Virus record (IMG/VR): IMGVR_UViG_3300017917_001417
Coordinates: 1 to 35,638 of that record
Source: a virus
Direction: 5' to 3' (one strand)
DNA: 35,638 bases
The notes under the pieces were generated by a model, which saw only the letters and a program-made list of their open reading frames with translations, was not told the origin of the DNA and ran no database searches. The translations under genes were made by a program, and so were the position numbers. Positions 5,066-24,615 of this stretch are shown here, piece by piece (the first letter of the stretch is position 1; each line of letters starts with the position of its first letter).

Positions 5066-5365
5066 TTATTCTTCTTCTGTATGAGAATACATATGGTCGT
5101 ATATCTCTGCTTGACAATTACAGGGCTCGTTACCTACATGTATGGTGCCGTGACAGCATTCCCATTCCATGTTCTCTTCTTGCCACCGGTCGTAAGCCTG
5201 TAAGGAGTGGACATGCTTGTTATTTAATTCTACAGCCTGTTGTAATCCTGAGGCTAATACAGAGAGAAGAGACTGTATGTCTGTAGTGTTATAGAGCTGC
5301 TCCATTATAGAGCCTTTTAGATGGGAGTAGTCCATGTTACTATGTGTTATTGGTTTTATAGCCAT
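5066..5365 (-). CDS. Hypothetical protein with Cys/His motif
   Basis: A 99-residue protein. The N-terminal two thirds are probably helical. The C-terminal third carries WECCHGTIHVGNEPCNC (about residues 68-84), with four Cys and two His closely spaced, which could bind a metal such as zinc. It ends in an acidic tail. The family is not recognised. The start ATG at 5365 follows the terminator at 5413-5455, so it has its own leader of about 50 nt. Confidence 0.65.
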   Translation of the reverse strand: MAIKPITHSNMDYSHLKGSIMEQLYNTTDIQSLLSVLASGLQQAVELNNKHVHSLQAYDRWQEENMEWECCHGTIHVGNEPCNCQAEIYDHMYSHTEEE

Positions 5366-5412
5366 TTGATCCGCCTGCCGGGCTATCCGGGAGACTGAGT
5401 GGTGAGAGATAC

Positions 5413-5794: not shown

Positions 5795-6124
5795 TTACTC
5801 TGCTGCAGCAGTTTTCATCGTGCGTTGTAACAGCACAAGTTTGGCAACGTCTGCACCATACTGCTGAACCATACTCTGGAGCTTAGAGAGTTCATCGTCC
5901 TTAACAACAACGTTGTTATTCTGGGTGATGTCAAGCTCAATGTTGTCGTCAACATAACGGGTGGTAAAGAACAAGGGCTTACCACTCTCTTCATCTAAGA
6001 TGAAGTTGTCACCCTGGGCATCCTGGTAAGAACTGAGTTCTTTTTCATTACCGGATACGGTGTAAACAAATACATTGTTTCCTGCCTTAGAACGATACTT
6101 GCGTTTGAATTTACCTGTTAACAT
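5795..6124 (-). CDS. Cassette gene 1: hypothetical protein
   Basis: A 109-residue protein starting MLTGKFKRKYRSKAGNN. The frame is open further upstream to a TTG, but the first ATG is at 6124. It is probably beta-rich in its first 70 residues (NVFVYTVSG, PLFFTTRYVDDN) with a helical C-terminus containing Q-rich and Lys residues. The family is unknown. It has its own promoter-like element (6161-6182) and terminator (5749-5784). The leader is about 37 nt, longer than in most cassettes, and lacks the start-codon inverted repeat. Confidence 0.7.
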   Translation of the reverse strand: MLTGKFKRKYRSKAGNNVFVYTVSGNEKELSSYQDAQGDNFILDEESGKPLFFTTRYVDDNIELDITQNNNVVVKDDELSKLQSMVQQYGADVAKLVLLQRTMKTAAAE

Positions 6125-6160: not shown

Positions 6161-6182
6161 TTTTATGTTCAATCAAGGGTTA
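6161..6182 (-). promoter_or_regulatory. Cassette element, copy 1
   Basis: Minus-strand TAACCCTTGA-N8-AAAA upstream of the 5795-6124 gene; one base differs from the AAACCCTTGA core. Confidence 0.65.
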
Positions 6183-6348
6183 AAGAGAGTGTGGGTAATC
6201 CAGCCGAAGGCTGGTGAAGGCAGCCGAAGGCTGCTAAACCAACTGAGCAGATGAGCATCAGAAATGAGTGGTCATACCTACTGCGGATCATGTGCAATGG
6301 CTCTCACTTCTTTCATCCTTGTAAAGAACTGTACTAAATCAAGGGTTA
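6183..6348 (-). other. Cassette remnant or small RNA unit without a clear gene
   Basis: A cassette element core (TAACCCTTGA, 6339-6348) is present, but the AAAA block at the fixed distance is missing. Downstream there is only a 12-codon open frame (ATG near 6319, MKEVRAIAHDPQ) and then two triloop hairpins, GCAGCC-TTC-GGCTGC and CCAGCC-TTC-GGCTGG. A related hairpin sits at 6383-6396. A stretch near 6265-6283 resembles 6880-6898 in the other gene-less unit. It may be a degraded gene or a small RNA. Confidence 0.45.
6339..6348 (-). promoter_or_regulatory. Cassette element core, copy 2 (incomplete)
   Basis: TAACCCTTGA on the minus strand without the AAAA block; heads the gene-less unit 6183-6338. 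Confidence 0.4.
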
Positions 6349-6422
6349 AATAGAGTGGTTAATTAAGAAATAATGCAGGTAACCAGCCGAAGGCTGTAAA
6401 TAGCGTACATAGAAGATAAACC

Positions 6423-6437
6423 CCCCTTTAGAAGGGG
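6423..6437 (-). terminator. Hairpin over the stop codon of cassette gene 2
   Basis: Minus-strand CCCCTT-CTA-AAGGGG contains the last codons and stop of the gene ending at 6428. Only a short T run (GGTTTATC) follows, so it is a weaker terminator than its neighbours. Confidence 0.5.
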
Positions 6438-6667
6438 AGTTCATCGTCCATACTGCTATTAGCCAGGTTCATTTGCCAATCTACCTCTTCTAAAGCCATA
6501 TCTACCTCGTACGTTAGATGACTAACGGCTTGCTCTACGGTGGCACCTGGTGTGTTCTGCATAAACAACAGCACGTTCATGATGACGTCTCCGGTCTTAT
6601 GAGAGGCGTAATGTGCTAGATGGTTTACATGCAGCTTAATGTCGTTAATGAGAGTTTCTGTGTCCAT
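6428..6667 (-). CDS. Cassette gene 2: hypothetical helical protein
   Basis: A 79-residue, mostly helical acidic protein. Its middle (DVIMNVLLFMQNTPGATVEQ, then AVSHLTYEVDM) resembles cassette gene 6 (7817-7999, EVLAMVILMLKRHPEMSIEA, then AFQHSILEWDV), so the two are probable paralogs. The function is unknown. Its upstream element (6696-6705) has the core but the AAAA block is displaced by 4 nt, unlike the other gene-bearing cassettes. Confidence 0.65.
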   Translation of the reverse strand: MDTETLINDIKLHVNHLAHYASHKTGDVIMNVLLFMQNTPGATVEQAVSHLTYEVDMALEEVDWQMNLANSSMDDELPF

Positions 6668-6695
6668 GATAAAGAGGGGTTTTAGTTATTATTAA

Positions 6696-6705
6696 TCAAG
6701 GGTTT
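6696..6705 (-). promoter_or_regulatory. Cassette element core, copy 3
   Basis: AAACCCTTGA on the minus strand, 28 nt before the ATG at 6667. The A-rich block lies 12 instead of 8 nt downstream. Confidence 0.55.
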
Positions 6706-6716
6706 AGAATAAATAT

Positions 6717-6751
6717 TAAAAAACAGAAGAGAGCTTGGTGGCTCCCTTCTG
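6717..6751 (-). terminator. Rho-independent terminator of a gene-less unit
   Basis: Minus-strand CAGAAGGGAGC-CACCAA-GCTCTCTTCTG followed by TTTTTT. It ends a unit that starts at the element 6907-6916 and has no visible protein gene. Confidence 0.8.
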
Positions 6752-6906
6752 AAAAACTGCCCTATGCACTACACAATATTTTTCTCCTGTGTTAGGGTGG
6801 GAATAATGATTTTACCCACTTGTACGCTGGGCCAGCTGTTAACTGGAGGTTACATAAAATAAAACGAGCGGTTAAAAATGAGTGGTTACGTCTACTACTT
6901 GTTAAG
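6752..6906 (-). ncRNA. Possible small RNA unit between element copy 4 and its terminator
   Basis: About 155 nt lie between a cassette element and a strong terminator. On the minus strand the only starts give ATG-TAA or a 16-codon GTG frame. A small hairpin, CCAG-TTAACAG-CTGG, is visible near 6835-6849. The arrangement fits a small RNA of roughly 150-190 nt or a decayed cassette. Confidence 0.4.
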
Positions 6907-6916
6907 TCAAGGGTTC
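6907..6916 (-). promoter_or_regulatory. Cassette element core, copy 4 (incomplete)
   Basis: GAACCCTTGA on the minus strand, without the AAAA block; heads the gene-less unit. Confidence 0.4.
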
Positions 6917-6927
6917 TTCCCATAGGG

Positions 6928-6949
6928 AAAAAGAGGACCGAAGTCCTCT
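6928..6949 (-). terminator. Rho-independent terminator with TTCG loop
   Basis: Minus-strand AGAGGAC-TTCG-GTCCTCT then TTTTT. A perfect 7-bp stem with the stable C(UUCG)G tetraloop, placed just after the stop of the lipoprotein gene (6953). Confidence 0.9.
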
Positions 6950-6952
6950 TTC

Positions 6953-7270
6953 TTATTCATTATCATCTACCAGGATGCTGTCAAGTCTGCCTATCTGATC
7001 CCAACGTAGGAACTGTACAAACCTGCCATCTTGGATGACATTGATACCATCCACTTCCATGTGGAACTGATAGTCTCCACGGTCTAGATGACAGGCTAAC
7101 CCGTCACACTCACAGTTACCGTCACAAGACTGATGTGTACGATCATTACAAGCATGTGTGGGTACACTGGTTTTCTCAATGTTGTCCTGAGGCGGAACCG
7201 GCTTAACTGGTTCTGGCTTCTTACAAGACACGGCTAATAGGACAACTGCTAAAATCATAATCTGTTTCAT
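6953..7270 (-). CDS. Cassette gene 3: Cys-rich lipoprotein
   Basis: A 105-residue protein. MKQIMILAVVLLAVSCKK is a signal peptide with lipobox AVSC (Cys at about residue 16), followed by a Pro/Lys linker (PEPVKPVPP). Next comes a Cys/His cluster (HACNDRTHQSCDGNCECDG, then CHLDRGD) likely held by disulfides or metal, and a C-terminal domain with FVQFLRWDQIGRL. It should be anchored to a host membrane facing the periplasm or surface. An in-frame ATG six bases upstream (MHM...) is possible. Exclusion of other phages is a plausible role, but unproven. Confidence 0.8.
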   Translation of the reverse strand: MKQIMILAVVLLAVSCKKPEPVKPVPPQDNIEKTSVPTHACNDRTHQSCDGNCECDGLACHLDRGDYQFHMEVDGINVIQDGRFVQFLRWDQIGRLDSILVDDNE

Positions 7271-7278
7271 GTGCATAA

Positions 7279-7300
7279 TTTTTATGTAAATCAAGGGTTT
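7279..7300 (-). promoter_or_regulatory. Cassette element, copy 5
   Basis: AAACCCTTGA-N8-AAAA on the minus strand. The following CATAA-AAA-TTATG inverted repeat includes an in-frame ATG. Confidence 0.75.
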
Positions 7301-7311
7301 ATACTATGTTT

Positions 7312-7343
7312 TAAAAGAACAGCACATTATACCTGTGCTGTTC
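7312..7343 (-). terminator. Rho-independent terminator enclosing a stop codon
   Basis: Minus-strand AGAACAGCAC-(9 nt)-GTGCTGTTCT then TTTT. The TAA of the 7327-7554 gene lies in the loop. Confidence 0.9.
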
Positions 7344-7554
7344 TATATGCTCGTAGCTTGTCTTCTACGGCCCAATAGCTCTTGGATTTCTGTGGCACCA
7401 GGGCTTCAAACACTACATAGCCGTTCTTAACCGTTCTATATTCTCCCATCTTGTCCATACCTACGGCAAAGAACTTGGAGCTAACTAGTCTTAGTTTAAT
7501 CAGGACATTACCAGCTTGATAATGATACCCGAACTTTACATGATTCTCAGTCAT
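7327..7554 (-). CDS. Cassette gene 4: hypothetical protein
   Basis: A 75-residue basic, probably beta-rich protein (HVKFGYHYQAGNVLIKLRLV, then FFAVGMDKMGEYRTVKNGYV), ending in a short helix. No family is recognised. It has a complete cassette: element 7564-7585, then the inverted repeat GCTTAA-AAC-TTAAGC directly before the ATG, and a terminator whose loop holds the stop codon. Confidence 0.7.
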   Translation of the reverse strand: MTENHVKFGYHYQAGNVLIKLRLVSSKFFAVGMDKMGEYRTVKNGYVVFEALVPQKSKSYWAVEDKLRAYRTAQV

Positions 7555-7563
7555 ATGCTTAAG

Positions 7564-7585
7564 TTTTAAGCTTAATCAAGGGTTT
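7564..7585 (-). promoter_or_regulatory. Cassette element, copy 6
   Basis: AAACCCTTGA-N8-AAAA on the minus strand, overlapping the GCTTAA/TTAAGC repeat just before the ATG at 7554. Confidence 0.75.
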
Positions 7586-7596
7586 AGTGTGCTTAA

Positions 7597-7624
7597 TAAA
7601 ACAGCCTGCATTTCTACAGGCTGT
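7597..7624 (-). terminator. Rho-independent terminator
   Basis: Minus-strand ACAGCCTG-TAGAAATG-CAGGCTGT then TTTATT, after the small lipoprotein gene ending at 7640. Confidence 0.85.
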
Positions 7625-7639
7625 ATTATCATAATATCA

Positions 7640-7759
7640 TCATCTGAGTGATCCTCTGCCACATCTTTGCGGGCCCTGAGCGGCCTGATATGGAGACATC
7701 ATACGAGAACATGACATGAGCAGTGTGGCTAACAGAGCCACGGCTAATAAACTTTTCAT
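7640..7759 (-). CDS. Cassette gene 5: 39-residue lipoprotein
   Basis: The signal peptide MKSLLAVALLATLLMSC has lipobox LMSC (Cys at residue 17). Only about 23 residues remain after processing (SRMMSPYQAAQGPQRCGRG...), including a second Cys. It is the only frame that begins properly downstream of its cassette element (7769-7790) and ends before the terminator. It matches the 41-residue lipoprotein at 4073-4198 in plan: short signal, lipidated Cys, a tail with one more Cys and basic residues. The target is unknown. Confidence 0.75.
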   Translation of the reverse strand: MKSLLAVALLATLLMSCSRMMSPYQAAQGPQRCGRGSLR

Positions 7760-7768
7760 AATGAGGAG

Positions 7769-7790
7769 TTTTATATGTGATCAAGGGTTT
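7769..7790 (-). promoter_or_regulatory. Cassette element, copy 7
   Basis: AAACCCTTGA-N8-AAAA on the minus strand before the ATG at 7759. No clear start-codon inverted repeat here. Confidence 0.7.
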
Positions 7791-7803
7791 AATATGTACT
7801 AAG

Positions 7804-7831
7804 AAAAAGAATGGGACTAGACGTCCCACTC
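7804..7831 (-). terminator. Rho-independent terminator enclosing a stop codon
   Basis: Minus-strand GAGTGGGAC-GTCTA-GTCCCATTC then TTTTT; the TAG of cassette gene 6 is in the loop and stem. Confidence 0.85.
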
Positions 7832-7999
7832 AAGAATACTGTGCTGAAATGCTGCTTCTATGGACATCTCTGGATGCCGCTTAAGCATGAGGATAACCAT
7901 GGCCAGCACCTCTGGTACGAGACCATGTGGTTCTGCCTGGGCAATAGTGTTAACGACCATAGTGGTCACGTCTGGAAGACTAAGTGTTGTACGTGGCAT
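7817..7999 (-). CDS. Cassette gene 6: small helical protein
   Basis: A 60-residue protein (MPRTTLSLPDVTTMVVN at its start), with an alternative in-frame ATG at 8005 giving MHM. A longer open frame continues upstream through the promoter element and is not credible. It is helical, and its C-terminal half (EVLAMVILMLKRHPEMSIEA...EWDV) resembles cassette gene 2 (6428-6667). The function is unknown. Its leader holds an imperfect inverted repeat (ATACATTAT / ATAATGCAT) reaching the start codon. Confidence 0.7.
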   Translation of the reverse strand: MPRTTLSLPDVTTMVVNTIAQAEPHGLVPEVLAMVILMLKRHPEMSIEAAFQHSILEWDV

Positions 8000-8007
8000 A
8001 TGCATTA

Positions 8008-8029
8008 TTTTATAATGTATCAAGGGTTT
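8008..8029 (-). promoter_or_regulatory. Cassette element, copy 8
   Basis: AAACCCTTGA-N8-AAAA on the minus strand, before the start at 7999/8005. Confidence 0.75.
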
Positions 8030-8043
8030 AGAACATAACATAT

Positions 8044-8063
8044 AAAAGGGGGCATTAGCCCCC
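8044..8063 (-). terminator. Rho-independent terminator
   Basis: Minus-strand GGGGGC-TAAT-GCCCCC then TTTT, directly after the gene ending at 8068. Confidence 0.9.
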
Positions 8064-8067
8064 GTTA

Positions 8068-8277
8068 TCATGCTTCTTCAATACTGTCTACTTGTAACTC
8101 GTATACAATCTTTACTGCATTGTATACGTTTACAATGTCATCAAAAAAGCCATGGTCCATTTTCCACATTACTTCCTCCGCTGTATAGCGGTCTTCGTAT
8201 TCATAAACCAGGTCTTTTGTAACAGTGCCGTTACCAATAAATGTTGTCTGTGTAAAGTGTAAAAACGTACGTGTCAT
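8068..8277 (-). CDS. Cassette gene 7: hypothetical protein, paralog of gene 8
   Basis: A 69-residue protein, probably a beta-hairpin region followed by a helix. The central and C-terminal part (YEYEDRYTAEEVMWKMDHGF, then AVKIVYELQ) aligns with cassette gene 8 (8332-8553: SEYEHAFIAEDIMHSMECGV, then AVKKIVYELE). They are adjacent diverged duplicates. The family is unknown. Cassette parts: element 8287-8308, AGTGTA/TACACT repeat before the ATG, terminator 8044-8063. Confidence 0.75.
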   Translation of the reverse strand: MTRTFLHFTQTTFIGNGTVTKDLVYEYEDRYTAEEVMWKMDHGFFDDIVNVYNAVKIVYELQVDSIEEA

Positions 8278-8286
8278 AGTGTATAA

Positions 8287-8308
8287 TTTTACACTGGATC
8301 AAGGGTTT
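8287..8308 (-). promoter_or_regulatory. Cassette element, copy 9
   Basis: AAACCCTTGA-N8-AAAA on the minus strand, within an AGTGTA-AAATTA-TACACT repeat next to the ATG at 8277. Confidence 0.75.
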
Positions 8309-8320
8309 ATAGTCTATAAA

Positions 8321-8347
8321 AGAAAAGAGGGTTATTCAACCCCCTCT
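8321..8347 (-). terminator. Rho-independent terminator overlapping a stop codon
   Basis: Minus-strand AGAG(GG)GGTT-GAAT-AACCCTCT then TTTCTTTT; the TAA of cassette gene 8 is in the hairpin. Confidence 0.8.
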
Positions 8348-8553
8348 TCTTCATCTATAAGAATGCCCACAAGTTCCAGTTCATACACAATCTTCTTAAC
8401 GGCATACACCATACCGTTCTCGTTAAATACGCCACACTCCATACTGTGCATGATGTCCTCTGCTATAAAAGCATGCTCATACTCACTGGAGCTGGATTGT
8501 GTAAAAGTCTTTCCGTCCTTAGTGATCGTAACGTCATAATGTAATGTAACCAT
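8332..8553 (-). CDS. Cassette gene 8: hypothetical protein, paralog of gene 7
   Basis: A 73-residue acidic protein with the same plan as cassette gene 7: an N-terminal strand pair (MVTLHYDVTITKDGKTF), the EYE...AEDIM..ME.GVF helix region, then VYAVKKIVYELELV and an acidic tail. No family is recognised. Its ATG follows a near-perfect palindrome (GTTTAAA-TT-TTTAAAC) that overlaps the cassette element 8563-8584. Confidence 0.75.
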   Translation of the reverse strand: MVTLHYDVTITKDGKTFTQSSSSEYEHAFIAEDIMHSMECGVFNENGMVYAVKKIVYELELVGILIDEEEGVE

Positions 8554-8562
8554 GGTTTAAAT

Positions 8563-8584
8563 TTTTAAACTTGATCAAGGGTTT
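8563..8584 (-). promoter_or_regulatory. Cassette element, copy 10
   Basis: AAACCCTTGA-N8-AAAA on the minus strand, overlapping the GTTTAAA/TTTAAAC palindrome before the ATG at 8553. Confidence 0.75.
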
Positions 8585-8593
8585 ACTACGTAG

Positions 8594-8618
8594 AAAAACA
8601 AAAGGGGCCGAAGCCCCT
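8594..8618 (-). terminator. Rho-independent terminator with TTCG loop
   Basis: Minus-strand AGGGGC-TTCG-GCCCCT then TTTGTTTTT; a perfect stem with the UUCG tetraloop, just after the gene ending at 8625. Confidence 0.95.
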
Positions 8619-8624
8619 GTGTTT

Positions 8625-8855
8625 CTAGAATTTATCAGTGATGTTCTTGATAGCATCCTGACGGCCCATCAGTATCTTACGTAAACGGCTTATCTCTTCA
8701 TTACGTTCTTCCACTATAGAGAATGCAAAGAAGATGACTGCAGACATGAAGATGATGAACCACTCATAGAGGTTCTCTCTGGTTTCCATTTGGAAGAAGA
8801 AATACAGAGATACAAGACCAAGAACAACGGACATGATTTGCATAAAGGTTTTCAT
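8625..8855 (-). CDS. Cassette gene 9: small membrane protein
   Basis: A 76-residue protein with two hydrophobic helices (about residues 4-22 and 32-48, WFIIFMSAVIFFAFSIV), followed by a charged helical tail (EERNEEISRLRKIL) that could form a coiled coil in the cytoplasm. The family is unknown. The leader contains ACTTAAA-GTTT-TTTAAGT ending next to the ATG. Confidence 0.75.
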   Translation of the reverse strand: MKTFMQIMSVVLGLVSLYFFFQMETRENLYEWFIIFMSAVIFFAFSIVEERNEEISRLRKILMGRQDAIKNITDKF

Positions 8856-8865
8856 AACTTAAAGT

Positions 8866-8887
8866 TTTTTAAGTAAGTCAAGGGTTT
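8866..8887 (-). promoter_or_regulatory. Cassette element, copy 11
   Basis: AAACCCTTGA-N8-AAAA on the minus strand, overlapping the ACTTAAA/TTTAAGT repeat before the ATG at 8855. Confidence 0.75.
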
Positions 8888-8903
8888 AATACTCATTGTT
8901 TAT

Positions 8904-8939
8904 AAAAGAATACAGGCCATCTATGTAGACAGCCTGTAT
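8904..8939 (-). terminator. Rho-independent terminator
   Basis: Minus-strand ATACAGGC...GCCTGTAT with an inner TCTA/TAGA pairing, then TCTTTT; ends the cassette gene stopping at 8946. Confidence 0.8.
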
Positions 8940-8945
8940 AGAATA

Positions 8946-9254
8946 CTAATAGGGAAGATCCTCACCGAAGATGTCAGTGTGTTCAGCATACTTCTGGTCT
9001 ATACGCTTATGCATGACATGTGCACACAGACGTCTTACGCACTTAAGCCACTCATCGTGTAGTGTAGCGTTAGTGGTAGCCCATGTGATGATGACTGTAC
9101 CAGCCTTACCGTCATAGACAGTGATGCTTGGATCAGAGATGAAGAAGTTGACTGTTTGCAGACTAGTCTTGATTCTGATCTTAGCAGTGGAGATGAACAT
9201 GTTACCAACCTGCAAGGTGTGTGCTCCGTAGGGAACGTTGATCTTGTGTAGCAT
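8946..9254 (-). CDS. Cassette gene 10: hypothetical protein
   Basis: A 102-residue protein. The first 70 residues look beta-rich (TLQVGNMFISTAKIRIKTSL, then TVNFFISDPSITVYDGKAGT), then a helix with DEWLKCVRRLCAHVMH. It could be a small PH- or YkuR-like barrel, but I do not recognise it. It is the first cassette next to the divergent region. Its start codon is inside the 3' arm of a perfect 11-bp inverted repeat (GTAGCATAAAA / TTTTATGCTAC), the strongest of the series. Ends with TAG. Confidence 0.75.
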   Translation of the reverse strand: MLHKINVPYGAHTLQVGNMFISTAKIRIKTSLQTVNFFISDPSITVYDGKAGTVIITWATTNATLHDEWLKCVRRLCAHVMHKRIDQKYAEHTDIFGEDLPY

Positions 9255-9263
9255 AAAATTTAG

Positions 9264-9285
9264 TTTTATGCTACGTCAAGGGTTT
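9264..9285 (-). promoter_or_regulatory. Cassette element, copy 12
   Basis: AAACCCTTGA-N8-AAAA on the minus strand, overlapping the 11-bp inverted repeat that includes the ATG at 9254. Confidence 0.8.
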
Positions 9286-10043: not shown

Positions 10044-10116
10044 GCGGGTGTAGCTCAACTGGTAGAGCAGCGGTCTCCAAAACCGAAGGTTGTGGGTTCA
10101 ATTCCTACCATCCGTG
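10044..10116 (+). tRNA. tRNA-Trp (CCA)
   Basis: Full cloverleaf: acceptor GCGGGTG/CATCCGT with two G-T pairs, D-stem GCTC/GAGC, anticodon loop CTCCAAA between GCGGT/ACCGA, T-loop TTCAATT, discriminator G. No CCA encoded. Confidence 0.9.
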
Positions 10117-10124
10117 CAACATAA

Positions 10125-10194
10125 GTCTAGTTTGGTCTTGGAGGCCGGGCAGTTTGCAAAACTGTTGGAGCGGGATCGTAACCTGCACTAGACT
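10125..10194 (+). tRNA. tRNA-Cys (GCA)
   Basis: Acceptor GTCTAGT/ACTAGAC, anticodon arm GCAGT-TTGCAAA-ACTGT, T-arm GCGGG-ATCGTAA-CCTGC. The D-loop is short (TTGGA). The T-loop has A54 and T58, the reverse of the usual T54/A58 pair. Confidence 0.8.
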
Positions 10195-10201
10195 CTTACA
10201 T

Positions 10202-10274
10202 GGTAAAGAAGCTAACTAGGTAGAAGCACGGGACTGAAAATCCTGGGGAGCTGGATCGTTACCAGCCTTTACCA
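10202..10274 (+). tRNA. tRNA-Phe (GAA)
   Basis: Acceptor GGTAAAG/CTTTACC, D-stem GCT/AGC, anticodon arm CGGGA-CTGAAAA-TCCTG, T-arm GCTGG-ATCGTTA-CCAGC, discriminator A. Position 8 is A instead of T, and the T-loop again has A54/T58. Confidence 0.85.
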
Positions 10275-10319
10275 CATTCTCCGCAGAATATGCGGACAAT
10301 CCTGGATTATTCACCGCAA

Positions 10320-10391
10320 GCCTCCTTAAGCTAACGGGAAAACTGCCTGACTTGTAATCAGGATTTACCGGGTCGGTTCCGGTAGGAGGCT
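10320..10391 (+). tRNA. tRNA-Thr (TGT)
   Basis: Acceptor GCCTCCT/AGGAGGC, anticodon arm CCTGA-CTTGTAA-TCAGG, T-arm ACCGG-GTCGGTT-CCGGT. The D-arm is weak and the T-loop has G54/G58. The spacer before it (10275-10319) holds the hairpin TCCGCA-GAATA-TGCGGA. Confidence 0.8.
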
Positions 10392-10484: not shown

Positions 10485-10564
10485 GCACATTTTAAATAGC
10501 CGCTCATCCGCAACCCCAACCGTTTGAAGATGTTGTTTTGCAAACCCAAATAAAACTGTGTCTT

Positions 10565-10975
10565 ATGATTTCTTACATTCTAAACACCGGAGCTGAGCTG
10601 CTTGGCAAAAAATGGAGAGCTGTTATCATATGGTATTTAAAGGACGGGCCTCTAAGGTTTTCACAGCTAAAAAAAAATATTCCGGACATATCTGTAAAGG
10701 TGTTGTCAGAGGTGTTAAAAGAGATGGAAGAAAATCACCTGGTGGTCAGAAAACAATATAGCACTATTCCTGTAAAGGTGACTTATGAGATACACCCGGA
10801 TGCCATTGATATTATAGACGCCAACGTTGTGTGCACCATCAGAATAGCTGAGTATATTCTAAGGAATGAAACCAGGTTTGGTCTTTCCGGAGAACTCTTT
10901 GCACAAATCACTGATCTGGTCAAGAAGAATAAGGTGTACATCAACCACCCGCCATACAGCTCCTTAAAAAAGTAA
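10565..10975 (+). CDS. HxlR-family winged-helix transcriptional regulator
   Basis: A 136-residue protein; the ATG at 10565 fits the family start better than an upstream TTG. It matches the HxlR pattern: LLGKKWRAVIIWYLKDGPLR, then FSQLKKNIPDISVKVLSEVL (recognition helix), then KEMEENHLVVRKQYSTIPVK and VTYEIHP for the wing. The usual N-terminal Cys redox sensor is absent, so it is probably not thiol-responsive. HxlR proteins bind as dimers to repeated operators; such repeats lie on both sides (10450-10484 and 10982-10997), so it probably regulates itself and the operon starting at 11145. Confidence 0.85.
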   Translation: MISYILNTGAELLGKKWRAVIIWYLKDGPLRFSQLKKNIPDISVKVLSEVLKEMEENHLVVRKQYSTIPVKVTYEIHPDAIDIIDANVVCTIRIAEYILRNETRFGLSGELFAQITDLVKKNKVYINHPPYSSLKK

Positions 10976-12494: not shown

Positions 12495-12859
12495 TGGCAA
12501 TAGTAAACCAGGTTGATAAAAGAGTGAGGATGGACCGCTGGGACATAGTGAAGTTCCAGCTACTCACTCATTGCTACCTGTTCAAAATACAAGTGAGTGA
12601 GAGTGATCTGGACTGCCTGACACTACTTGCTATTAACGGAGAGCAGGAGCTGACAAGCTTTTGTAACATAGCCCATGATGAGAAGATATTCTCGTCTACG
12701 CAGAGTGTACGTAACTGTCTCACCAAAGCTGAAAAGAAGAAACTGATTAAGAAGGAAGGAAAGAATAAGAAGAAGATATACATCCACCCGGATCTGAAGG
12801 TGCATGCTAAAGGAAACATTCTTCTTGACTATAAATTCTTGAGTGTTGAAACCCAGTAA
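12494..12859 (+). CDS. Probable winged-helix protein
   Basis: A 121-residue protein. The region about 60-110 (SSTQSVRNCLTKAEKKKLIK, then KKIYIHPDL) reads as a recognition helix followed by a basic wing, similar to short phage DNA-binding proteins. There is no N-terminal enzymatic domain. It is coupled to the acetyltransferase gene by an ATG/TGA overlap and overlaps the IHF-like gene by 17 bases. Likely a regulator or DNA-architecture factor. Confidence 0.6.
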   Translation: MAIVNQVDKRVRMDRWDIVKFQLLTHCYLFKIQVSESDLDCLTLLAINGEQELTSFCNIAHDEKIFSSTQSVRNCLTKAEKKKLIKKEGKNKKKIYIHPDLKVHAKGNILLDYKFLSVETQ

Positions 12860-13268
12860 GGCAAAACAATTTATTCCGCAGGTAGCTGAGCAAACCGGTG
12901 TAAGTGAGGAGTGTGCATCTGCAATAATAAACTTCTACTGGCAGGAGGTGAGAAAATCTCTTTCCGGATTAAAACATTCACGGGTGCATCTGACCAACCT
13001 GGGTGATTTTACCATCAAGCACTGGAAGCTGGATGATAAGATTCAGAAGCTGGAGCAGTTTGAAGAGAACAACAGGCTTAAAGGACTACAGCAGATGACC
13101 GCCAGGTTTAAAACAGTGGAAACACTGTATGACTTAAAACAGCTTAAGCAGATCGTAGAAGAAGAGAAGCAGAGGGCTGACTTTATCAAACTGCATAAAA
13201 AGAACAGACATGTCGTCACTACAAGAGAACATAATCAGGGTGTGGAAAGCCAAGGGGCAGATCATTGA
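12843..13268 (+). CDS. IHF/HU-like DNA-binding protein
   Basis: A 141-residue protein; it must start at GTG 12843 or TTG 12846 because no ATG is available. The first 60 residues match the HU/IHF fold: FIPQVAEQTGVSEECASAII, then HSRVHLTNLGDFTIKHWKL, equivalent to the G-x-G-x-F beta-arm base. The usual flexible DNA-binding arm is short or absent, and a long C-terminal helix (about 70-125) replaces it. IHF-like genes near the packaging genes are typical of crAss-like phages. It probably bends DNA during packaging or transcription. Confidence 0.75.
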   Translation: MLKPSKAKQFIPQVAEQTGVSEECASAIINFYWQEVRKSLSGLKHSRVHLTNLGDFTIKHWKLDDKIQKLEQFEENNRLKGLQQMTARFKTVETLYDLKQLKQIVEEEKQRADFIKLHKKNRHVVTTREHNQGVESQGADH

Positions 13269-23355: not shown

Positions 23356-24615
23356 ATGGAAAACCAAACATCTGTACAGACTAATGTACAACAAGTAGAT
23401 CTTGATATAGACAGCTGGTTAGGAGCTCCCGGAGCTGATAGTATTGTCACTCCCACTTCTACAGAAGAAGTTAAGCCTAACATCCTTTCTAATAAAGCTC
23501 CAGACCTCACATTCCTGGATAAGGAAGATGATGAGGATGAAGAAAATAAGAAACCAGACGGAACAGAAGCTTCTAAAGAGCCAGTTTCCCGTGAAACAGT
23601 GGATGACATTGTAAATGACCTGGATGAAGAAGATGCTTCTGCACAGGGAAAAAGCAAAGGTGGTCGTCCTAAAACTGAAAAGTCCGGACTGGTAGAGTTC
23701 TTAAAAAAGAGAATAGAGTCAAAGGAGATGTTTGCCTTTGATGACTATGATGAAAGTAAACAAACCCTTGATGAGTACCTATCAGGTCTCGGAGAGAAAG
23801 ATATAGAGGAATTGTGGCAAGCCAATATTGACAACCTCAAGAATGAGGTGGCTGCTTCAACCCCTAAAGAGTTTTTTGAATCACTGCCAGATGAACTTCA
23901 GTATGCTGCTAAATATGTAGCAGATGGAGGACAAGACCTTAAAGGACTATTCCGTGCACTTGCTCAGGTGGAGGAAGTGAGACAACTGGATCCTTCTAAG
24001 GAAACTGACCAGGAAGAAATCATCCGTAATTATCTGCAGGCTACCCAGTTTGGTACAGCTGATGAGATTGATGAGGAGATCAACACTTGGAAAGACCTGG
24101 GTGTACTGGAAAAGAAAGCCGGCCAGTTCAAGCCAAAGCTTGACAGGATGCAGGAAGAAATGATCCAGGCCCAGCTTGCAGAACAAGAAGCTCGTAAGCA
24201 ACAACAGGAAGAAGCTGCCCAGGCATATACAAGAAATGTGTTTGAAGCTCTTCGTCCAGCTGAGATTAACGGTTTGAAACTGGATAAGAAAACCCAGGCT
24301 TTCCTTTACTCAGGGCTTACACAACCACAATACCCATCTATCAGCGGTCGTCCAACCAACCTTCTGGGACACTTGCTGGAAAAACACCAGTTCGTAGAAC
24401 CTAACTACCCACTCATTGCAGAAGCTCTATGGCTTCTTTCAGATCCGGATAGTTACCGTGCCGAACTTAAAAAACAGGGTAAAAATGCTGCTGTAGAACA
24501 AACAGTGAGAACACTGAAGACTGAGCAGGCTCGTAAAAACCCAAGTTCTTACCAGGAAGAAGAAGAAACAAGAACTAGAAAACTGGTAAGACCTGCCAAC
24601 ATCTTTAAACGCTAA
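23356..24615 (+). CDS. Scaffold-like head protein
   Basis: A 419-residue acidic, mostly helical protein between portal and capsid genes, where scaffolds are encoded. Residues about 55-100 are strongly acidic (DKEDDEDEENKKPDGTEASK), and about 255-285 form a coiled coil (EEMIQAQLAEQEARKQQQEE). The C-terminus is basic (TRKLVRPANIFKR), as expected for a scaffold that contacts the capsid protein. No protease motif is visible. Assignment is from position and composition. Confidence 0.65.
   Translation: MENQTSVQTNVQQVDLDIDSWLGAPGADSIVTPTSTEEVKPNILSNKAPDLTFLDKEDDEDEENKKPDGTEASKEPVSRETVDDIVNDLDEEDASAQGKSKGGRPKTEKSGLVEFLKKRIESKEMFAFDDYDESKQTLDEYLSGLGEKDIEELWQANIDNLKNEVAASTPKEFFESLPDELQYAAKYVADGGQDLKGLFRALAQVEEVRQLDPSKETDQEEIIRNYLQATQFGTADEIDEEINTWKDLGVLEKKAGQFKPKLDRMQEEMIQAQLAEQEARKQQQEEAAQAYTRNVFEALRPAEINGLKLDKKTQAFLYSGLTQPQYPSISGRPTNLLGHLLEKHQFVEPNYPLIAEALWLLSDPDSYRAELKKQGKNAAVEQTVRTLKTEQARKNPSSYQEEEETRTRKLVRPANIFKR

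Follow-up and report, generated by a model that had tools for sequence, protein, structure and literature searches.

The window analyzed here is the 35,638-base virus record IMGVR_UViG_3300017917_001417, taken at its full length. Structural proteins are coded on its plus strand from about 11 kb, and small genes run on the minus strand from about 9.3 kb downward, diverging from the structural block. It is among these small genes that a short element, AACCCTTGA, recurs in an array of mostly single-gene cassettes. The structural block comprises a terminase (phrog_6681), a portal (phrog_6547), a major head protein, and tail fibres, as judged by PHROG matches, and it is preceded on the plus strand by PhoH, an exonuclease, and an IHF-like protein. 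TerL, the portal, and the major head protein are homologous to those of crAss-like phages, and the IHF-like gene (12843-13268; Pfam PF00216, 25.0 bits with a cut-off of 22.4) lies near the structural block, an arrangement named as a Crassvirales signature (PMC7886860). Because the 131 portal homologues among known phage records are mostly crAss-like and all share less than 60% identity with the window portal, the window most likely represents part of the genome of a distant Crassvirales-like phage. The divergence from the structural block is the early-gene site in this group (PMC10136315), and by their position there the array genes would be early. The features of the array are as follows.

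9264-9285, minus strand: element 1, AAACCCTTGA-N8-AAAA; gene 8946-9254 downstream
9248-9274, minus strand: inverted repeat between element core and start codon, an example with an 11-bp stem
8946-9254, minus strand: cassette gene A; a beta2-alpha-beta2-alpha fold is predicted for its G047 orthologue
8866-8887, minus strand: element 2; gene 8625-8855 downstream
8563-8584, minus strand: element 3; gene 8332-8553 downstream, a paralogue of 8068-8277
8287-8308, minus strand: element 4; gene 8068-8277 downstream
8008-8029, minus strand: element 5; gene 7817-8005 downstream
7769-7790, minus strand: element 6; 39-amino-acid lipoprotein-like open reading frame (ORF) 7640-7759 downstream
7564-7585, minus strand: element 7; gene 7327-7554 downstream
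7327-7554, minus strand: cassette gene B; orthologues in G047 and G031
7279-7300, minus strand: element 8; lipoprotein-like gene 6953-7276 downstream
6907-6915, minus strand: element 9, core only, without AAAA at +8; no ORF of 25 amino acids starts within 70 nt
6704-6909, minus strand: non-coding-RNA-like cassette after element 9; terminator-like site 6751-6724; z of -1.47; no Rfam match
6696-6704, minus strand: element 10, core; gene 6428-6667, with its ATG 28 nt downstream
6339-6347, minus strand: element 11, core only, without a convincing ORF
6190-6341, minus strand: non-coding-RNA-like cassette after element 11; z of -1.68
6161-6182, minus strand: element 12, TAACCCTTGA-N8-AAAA; long leader to gene D
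5795-6124, minus strand: gene D, the last gene of the array; its orthologues are also last in the G047 and G031 arrays

The initial annotation had reported twelve minus-strand copies of a CCCTTGA-containing element, nine of them with AAAA 8 nt from TTGA, and none outside the stretch. Both counts were reproduced. The 12 minus-strand copies of AACCCTTGA lie between 6173 and 9284, against a chance expectation of 0.43 (standard deviation, 0.62) for the whole window, and exact CCCTTGA-N8-AAAA occurs nine times, every one within the array stretch. The confinement to the stretch also stands, apart from one stray exact copy of AACCCTTGA, the thirteenth, which lies within a gene at 23763 (plus strand); none of 100 shuffles reached 13. 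A position weight matrix derived solely from other phages gave 11 of the 12 window copies scores of 18.5 to 27.2 bits, and the next-best window site scored 12.9. Since a single site of 21.5 also turned up in at least one of 40 sequences simulated under a Markov-1 model, the significance rests on the cluster and not on single scores. A scan of viral contigs with the 22-mer pattern matched at least 120 stretches, with one match each and no arrays among the matches listed.

The element copies are placed between a terminator-like site and the start of a gene or RNA. Ten of them precede genes, as had been proposed for all, but the remaining two (6913 and 6345) lead into 166 to 211 nt without a convincing ORF. 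The ATG lies 20 to 22 nt from TTGA in eight copies, 28 nt in one (6702), and 48 nt in one (6179). AAAA is found at +8 in all eight close-ATG copies and, among the remaining four, at 6179 only. The array region holds 17 terminator-like sites versus 2.3 ± 1.5 in shuffles, with some more seen by eye, in agreement with the earlier suggestion that almost every cassette ends in its own terminator. From the upstream terminator to the start codon the distance is about 40 to 50 nt in most cassettes. The positions of elements and terminators support promoter-gene-terminator-like units, with the promoter role being predicted.

The element itself was compared over 33 copies of types A and A', drawn from four phages. 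They have AACCC(T/C)TGA in common, with a T almost always coming next, and the three C's are invariant in all 33 copies. Since the copies were collected by the AACCC(T/C)TGA core, its invariance is partly built in; the flanking positions were not used for picking. Gene cassettes and RNA or long-leader cassettes alike tend to have T, A, and a purine at fixed places about 8 nt past TGA, and A at the positions that follow is nearly invariant in gene cassettes only. We therefore modified the initial description: the core stands, but AAAA lies outside it. The pattern AAACCCTTGA-N8-AAAA would combine two things, an AACCCYTGAT core with a TA-purine start-like site, common to cassettes for genes and for RNAs, and an A-run characteristic of those for genes. 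The element is likely a promoter, predicted to span about 20 bp (AACCCYTGAT-N2-A-N3-TAR; R, purine) with its initiator at TAR. Transcription would most likely start at the TA-purine about 8 nt past TTGA, so that gene transcripts would begin with AAAA and reach the ATG after about 12 to 14 nt.

The RNA-like cassettes have the core element, no convincing ORF, and mostly a terminator, and they are moderately structured (z about -1.5). No Rfam family was matched. Cassettes of this kind were also seen in two relatives of the window, L291 (near 3897 and 3681) and L265 (near 7970).

In seven of the eight close-ATG window cassettes, an inverted repeat of varying sequence lies between TTGA and ATG. Matched hairpin arms pair better than swapped ones (P = 1.5e-4 in the window, 1.4e-3 in the relatives L291 and L274, and 2e-5 combined), as would be expected if the unit acted at the RNA level, with a 5' leader hairpin before the ATG controlling mRNA stability or translation. 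However, the pairing is not significant in the close relative G047 (P = 0.14), the repeat is not seen in the RNA cassettes, and the invariant core would be left unexplained. We consider control at the RNA level improbable, and the hairpin would be at most an added layer. As a general feature of the arrays the hairpin was rejected; it reaches significance in the window and in L291/L274 but is absent in G047, and is treated here as a secondary trait of a lineage.

Relatives with the same arrangement were found through IHF-based and array-gene-based searches; portal-based relatives were searched for the same element and gave no array. The motif search was tuned along the way, several relatives, strands, and anchor rules having been tried before the element-bearing ones were singled out, and relatives without a detected element are therefore reported beside those with one. 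This search of the window and its relatives, which the initial annotation had suggested, revealed arrays in several of them. G047 (L316), whose TerL is 89% identical to that of the window, carries 10 exact copies of AACCCTTGAT, all on the same strand within 3 kb, and has zero further exact element copies in 54.9 kb. G031 (L291) has 8 CCCCTGA copies, five of them with the same ATG spacing, and L274 has 3. The elements of L265 and L295 are of the form TTTCCTTTA-N2-A-N2-(T/C)(T/C)G, and in G029 (124.7 kb, including L295) the exact TTTCCTTTA-type (type B) pattern is confined to the array, with one 1-mismatch site elsewhere. L333 carries five exact TCAAAACCT copies in its 26-kb record, on one strand and within 2 kb. 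De novo motif search beat shuffled controls in the window, L316, L291, L265, and L295; in L333 it was only marginally above shuffles, and the top motif was not TCAAAACCT. In a tree of IHF sequences the window falls near G047 and G046, with deeper forks open and several rows long-branched; the groups by element type were too small for a clustering test.

The genes of the arrays are partly shared. The window genes at 9254, 7554, 7276, and 6124 match G047 genes at 28 to 59% identity, and three of them also match G031. Orthologues were also found behind elements of different types: G047_32435, behind CCCTTGA, is orthologous to L265_4017 and L295_4112, behind TTTCCTTTA; G031_37166, behind CCCCTGA, is orthologous to L265_2336, behind the L265 element type; and G031_37414 is orthologous to L295_2677, again with a different type in each phage. 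The element sequence changes jointly in all array copies between phages while the genes persist, which argues for a trans-acting reader. Because related arrays in relatives carry different signals in every copy, the signal is phage specific, as the initial annotation had proposed.

Such concerted change fits any DNA-binding protein, including a phage repressor or activator for which the element would be the operator, with the true promoter being weak and hidden in the AT-rich flank. The fixed ATG distance in most copies is also compatible with an operator. However, the RNA cassettes retain the core without the ATG spacing, and the short gap between terminator and start codon leaves little space for a second promoter, none of which was seen. 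An operator is therefore unlikely. The arrays could also have been shaped by recombination, the element being an integron-like site for cassette exchange without a direct role in transcription. Cassette order does differ, with A preceding B in the window and G047 but following it in G031, some cassettes are paralogous, and a close relative has no array. Nevertheless, the window proteins that were scanned included no recognisable integrase, several orthologous genes stand behind unrelated elements in different phages, and the fixed ATG distance together with a terminator just upstream points to transcription, which makes a recombination site very improbable.

We additionally compared the elements with host promoter consensus sequences. 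The absence of a sigma-70 or Bacteroidota promoter match, noted initially, was borne out, as the scores do not stand out from shuffles. For the sigma-70 consensus TTGACA-N17-TATAAT, the mean best score at the elements was 8.18 of 12 versus 7.90 (standard deviation, 0.15) in shuffles, slightly above them yet far from consensus, and none exceeded 9; the region has 6 sigma-70 sites versus 9.1 expected. For the Bacteroidota promoter (TTG at -33 and TAnnTTTG at -7), the mean was 6.33 of 9 versus 6.53 in shuffles. Eleven relatives gave no match to sigma region 2, and for sigma region 4 a single weak match in relatives stayed below the cut-off. Host RNA polymerase could still read the element with the help of an activator encoded by the phage or through a variant sigma contact. 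AACCCTTG matches 4 of the 6 fixed positions of TAnnTTTG, and TTG lies about 8 nt before the proposed start, like the Bacteroidota -7 box. The patchy presence of the element would be explained if the activator travels with the array, and late Crassvirales genes are thought to use host polymerase (PMC10136315). In contrast, the CCC, whose invariance is partly due to the picking of the copies by the core, is not specified by the -7 box, there is no -33 element, and the combined score is no better than that of shuffles. Reading by host polymerase is thus doubtful.

The leading candidate for the reader is a virion RNA polymerase, an assignment to which we give somewhat less than even confidence. 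It is the best candidate because a giant protein of the near-complete relative G029, with DFDID, which fits the DxDxD signature of the giant Crassvirales polymerase, matches gp66, the catalytic polymerase subunit of the Cellulophaga phage phi14:2 (E = 2e-9), because the phi14:2 polymerase performs rifampicin-resistant early transcription according to a review (PMC10136315), and because a conserved motif ahead of the pre-early genes of the Thermus phage P23-45 has been proposed as the target of its virion RNA polymerase (PMC10770324). The G029 polymerase homologue is matched in nine of the 17 relatives tested, G029 itself and eight others; the giant RNA polymerase gene region lies outside the 35.6-kb window fragment. 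The stretch would then be an early-gene island of a Crassvirales-like phage, assembled from short transcription units. Each unit would carry a compact promoter (AACCCTTGAT-N2-A-N3-TAR) ahead of a single small protein gene or small RNA, and most would end in an intrinsic terminator. The reader would be a factor brought by the phage, most likely a virion-packaged RNA polymerase of the phi14:2 gp66 type, so that genes could be switched on individually, independent of host sigma factors, and modules could be gained, lost, and reordered. An early-gene island with phage-specific promoters read by a phage factor, most likely the virion polymerase, is the reading that we tentatively prefer, at close to even confidence for the whole. 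A private promoter for swappable units of one very early gene or small RNA each, read by an injected polymerase and switching its sequence across whole arrays as polymerase specificity drifts, with at least four promoter types in one group of relatives, is possible but more speculative.

Several observations weigh against this preferred reading. The early region of phi14:2 has no comparable repeat array, and the relatives L332 and L329 have no repeated element (de novo motif search not above shuffles). Among the records compared, there was no type A phage record containing its polymerase gene. G046, as close to the window as G047 (TerL, 89%), has no array and zero exact element copies in 126.6 kb, yet it weakly matches the polymerase homologue; the CCCTTGA reader could therefore be a factor travelling with the array. 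A second conserved element, GCGGATAARATRGCTATAA, described below, is an equally good candidate for a core phage promoter.

Compared with known systems, the array shares with phi14:2 and the Crassvirales its phage kin, the polymerase homologue in near-complete relatives, and the location of the genes at the divergence from structural genes (PMC10136315). It resembles P23-45 in that a short conserved motif lies upstream of pre-early genes there, the proposed reader is an injected two-barrel RNA polymerase, and polymerase-bearing relatives share the motif (PMC10770324). However, the P23-45 motif is AT-rich and backed by start-site mapping and chromatin immunoprecipitation, whereas the present element, predicted from sequence, has a CCC core and is missing in some relatives with a polymerase homologue. 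In phage N4, early promoters are served by an injected phage polymerase and have hairpins of conserved sequence upstream of the start. An injected phage polymerase, as proposed here, and small hairpins near the start site are common to both, but the stem sequence varies here and G047 has no hairpin. Morons are single genes with their own promoter and terminator, gained or lost as a unit; their promoters are of the host sigma-70 type, and they are usually scattered. The cassettes are likewise single-gene units with terminators and a predicted promoter of their own, and they vary between close relatives, but here consecutive units share one nonhost signal.

The array is real and conserved in kind, and it would add unusual modularity and whole-array turnover to phage-specific early promoters. 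No description of an early promoter for Crassvirales was found in the literature searched, the primary phi14:2 paper being outside that search. A short repeated element with natural variants in relatives offers a direct handle for reporter and purified-polymerase work. If confirmed, the element would mark early islands of unknown small genes in environmental phages, often of the host takeover or counter-defence sort.

The second element is a 19-nt non-coding sequence kept by most relatives, and it occurs in about 40 distinct contexts, usually once and on the early strand.

5356-5374 of the window, minus strand: GCGGATAARATRGCTATAA; also in G046, L298 (4650), L332 (4527), and L291 (2899)

Three long records have three related sites each, one of which lies on the strand opposite to the other two (e.g., G008 at 75719, 86914, and 94908), and one variant lies directly after the portal stop. 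The reversed control pattern gave zero matches, and GCGGATAARATRGCTATAA had no Rfam match. It could serve as a phage promoter of more general use, or be a site of a different type.

Repeated elements of other kinds were observed in further contigs. The unrelated contigs L076 (5675-7648) and L030 (7145-9731) have six copies each of TTGACAATAA(A/T)TGG, most then followed by a TATAAT-like sequence; these sets are arrays of sigma-70-like promoters. In L097 (796-4940), an inverted repeat resembling CCAAAATTATACCATATAATTTTGG occurs seven times, in several cases adjoined by CTTGACAC.

For the cassette genes, a fairly confident structure prediction (predicted local distance difference test [pLDDT] score, 81) gave the gene A family its beta2-alpha-beta2-alpha fold, which matched neither solved nor viral structures significantly. 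Gene D had no match in bacterial genomes or known phages, and its AlphaFold model (pLDDT, 50) was not used. Three tRNA genes lie on the plus strand at 10044-10391, at the point of divergence between early and structural genes. The first gene of the plus-strand block (10538-10975) codes for an HxlR-type helix-turn-helix regulator by Pfam match, which could be a host-derived switch. A ParB-like protein is coded on the minus strand at 1395-2144; a pattern-based scan of viral contigs gave one relative only, L298 (78% identity), and G047 also seems to have a ParB-like protein.

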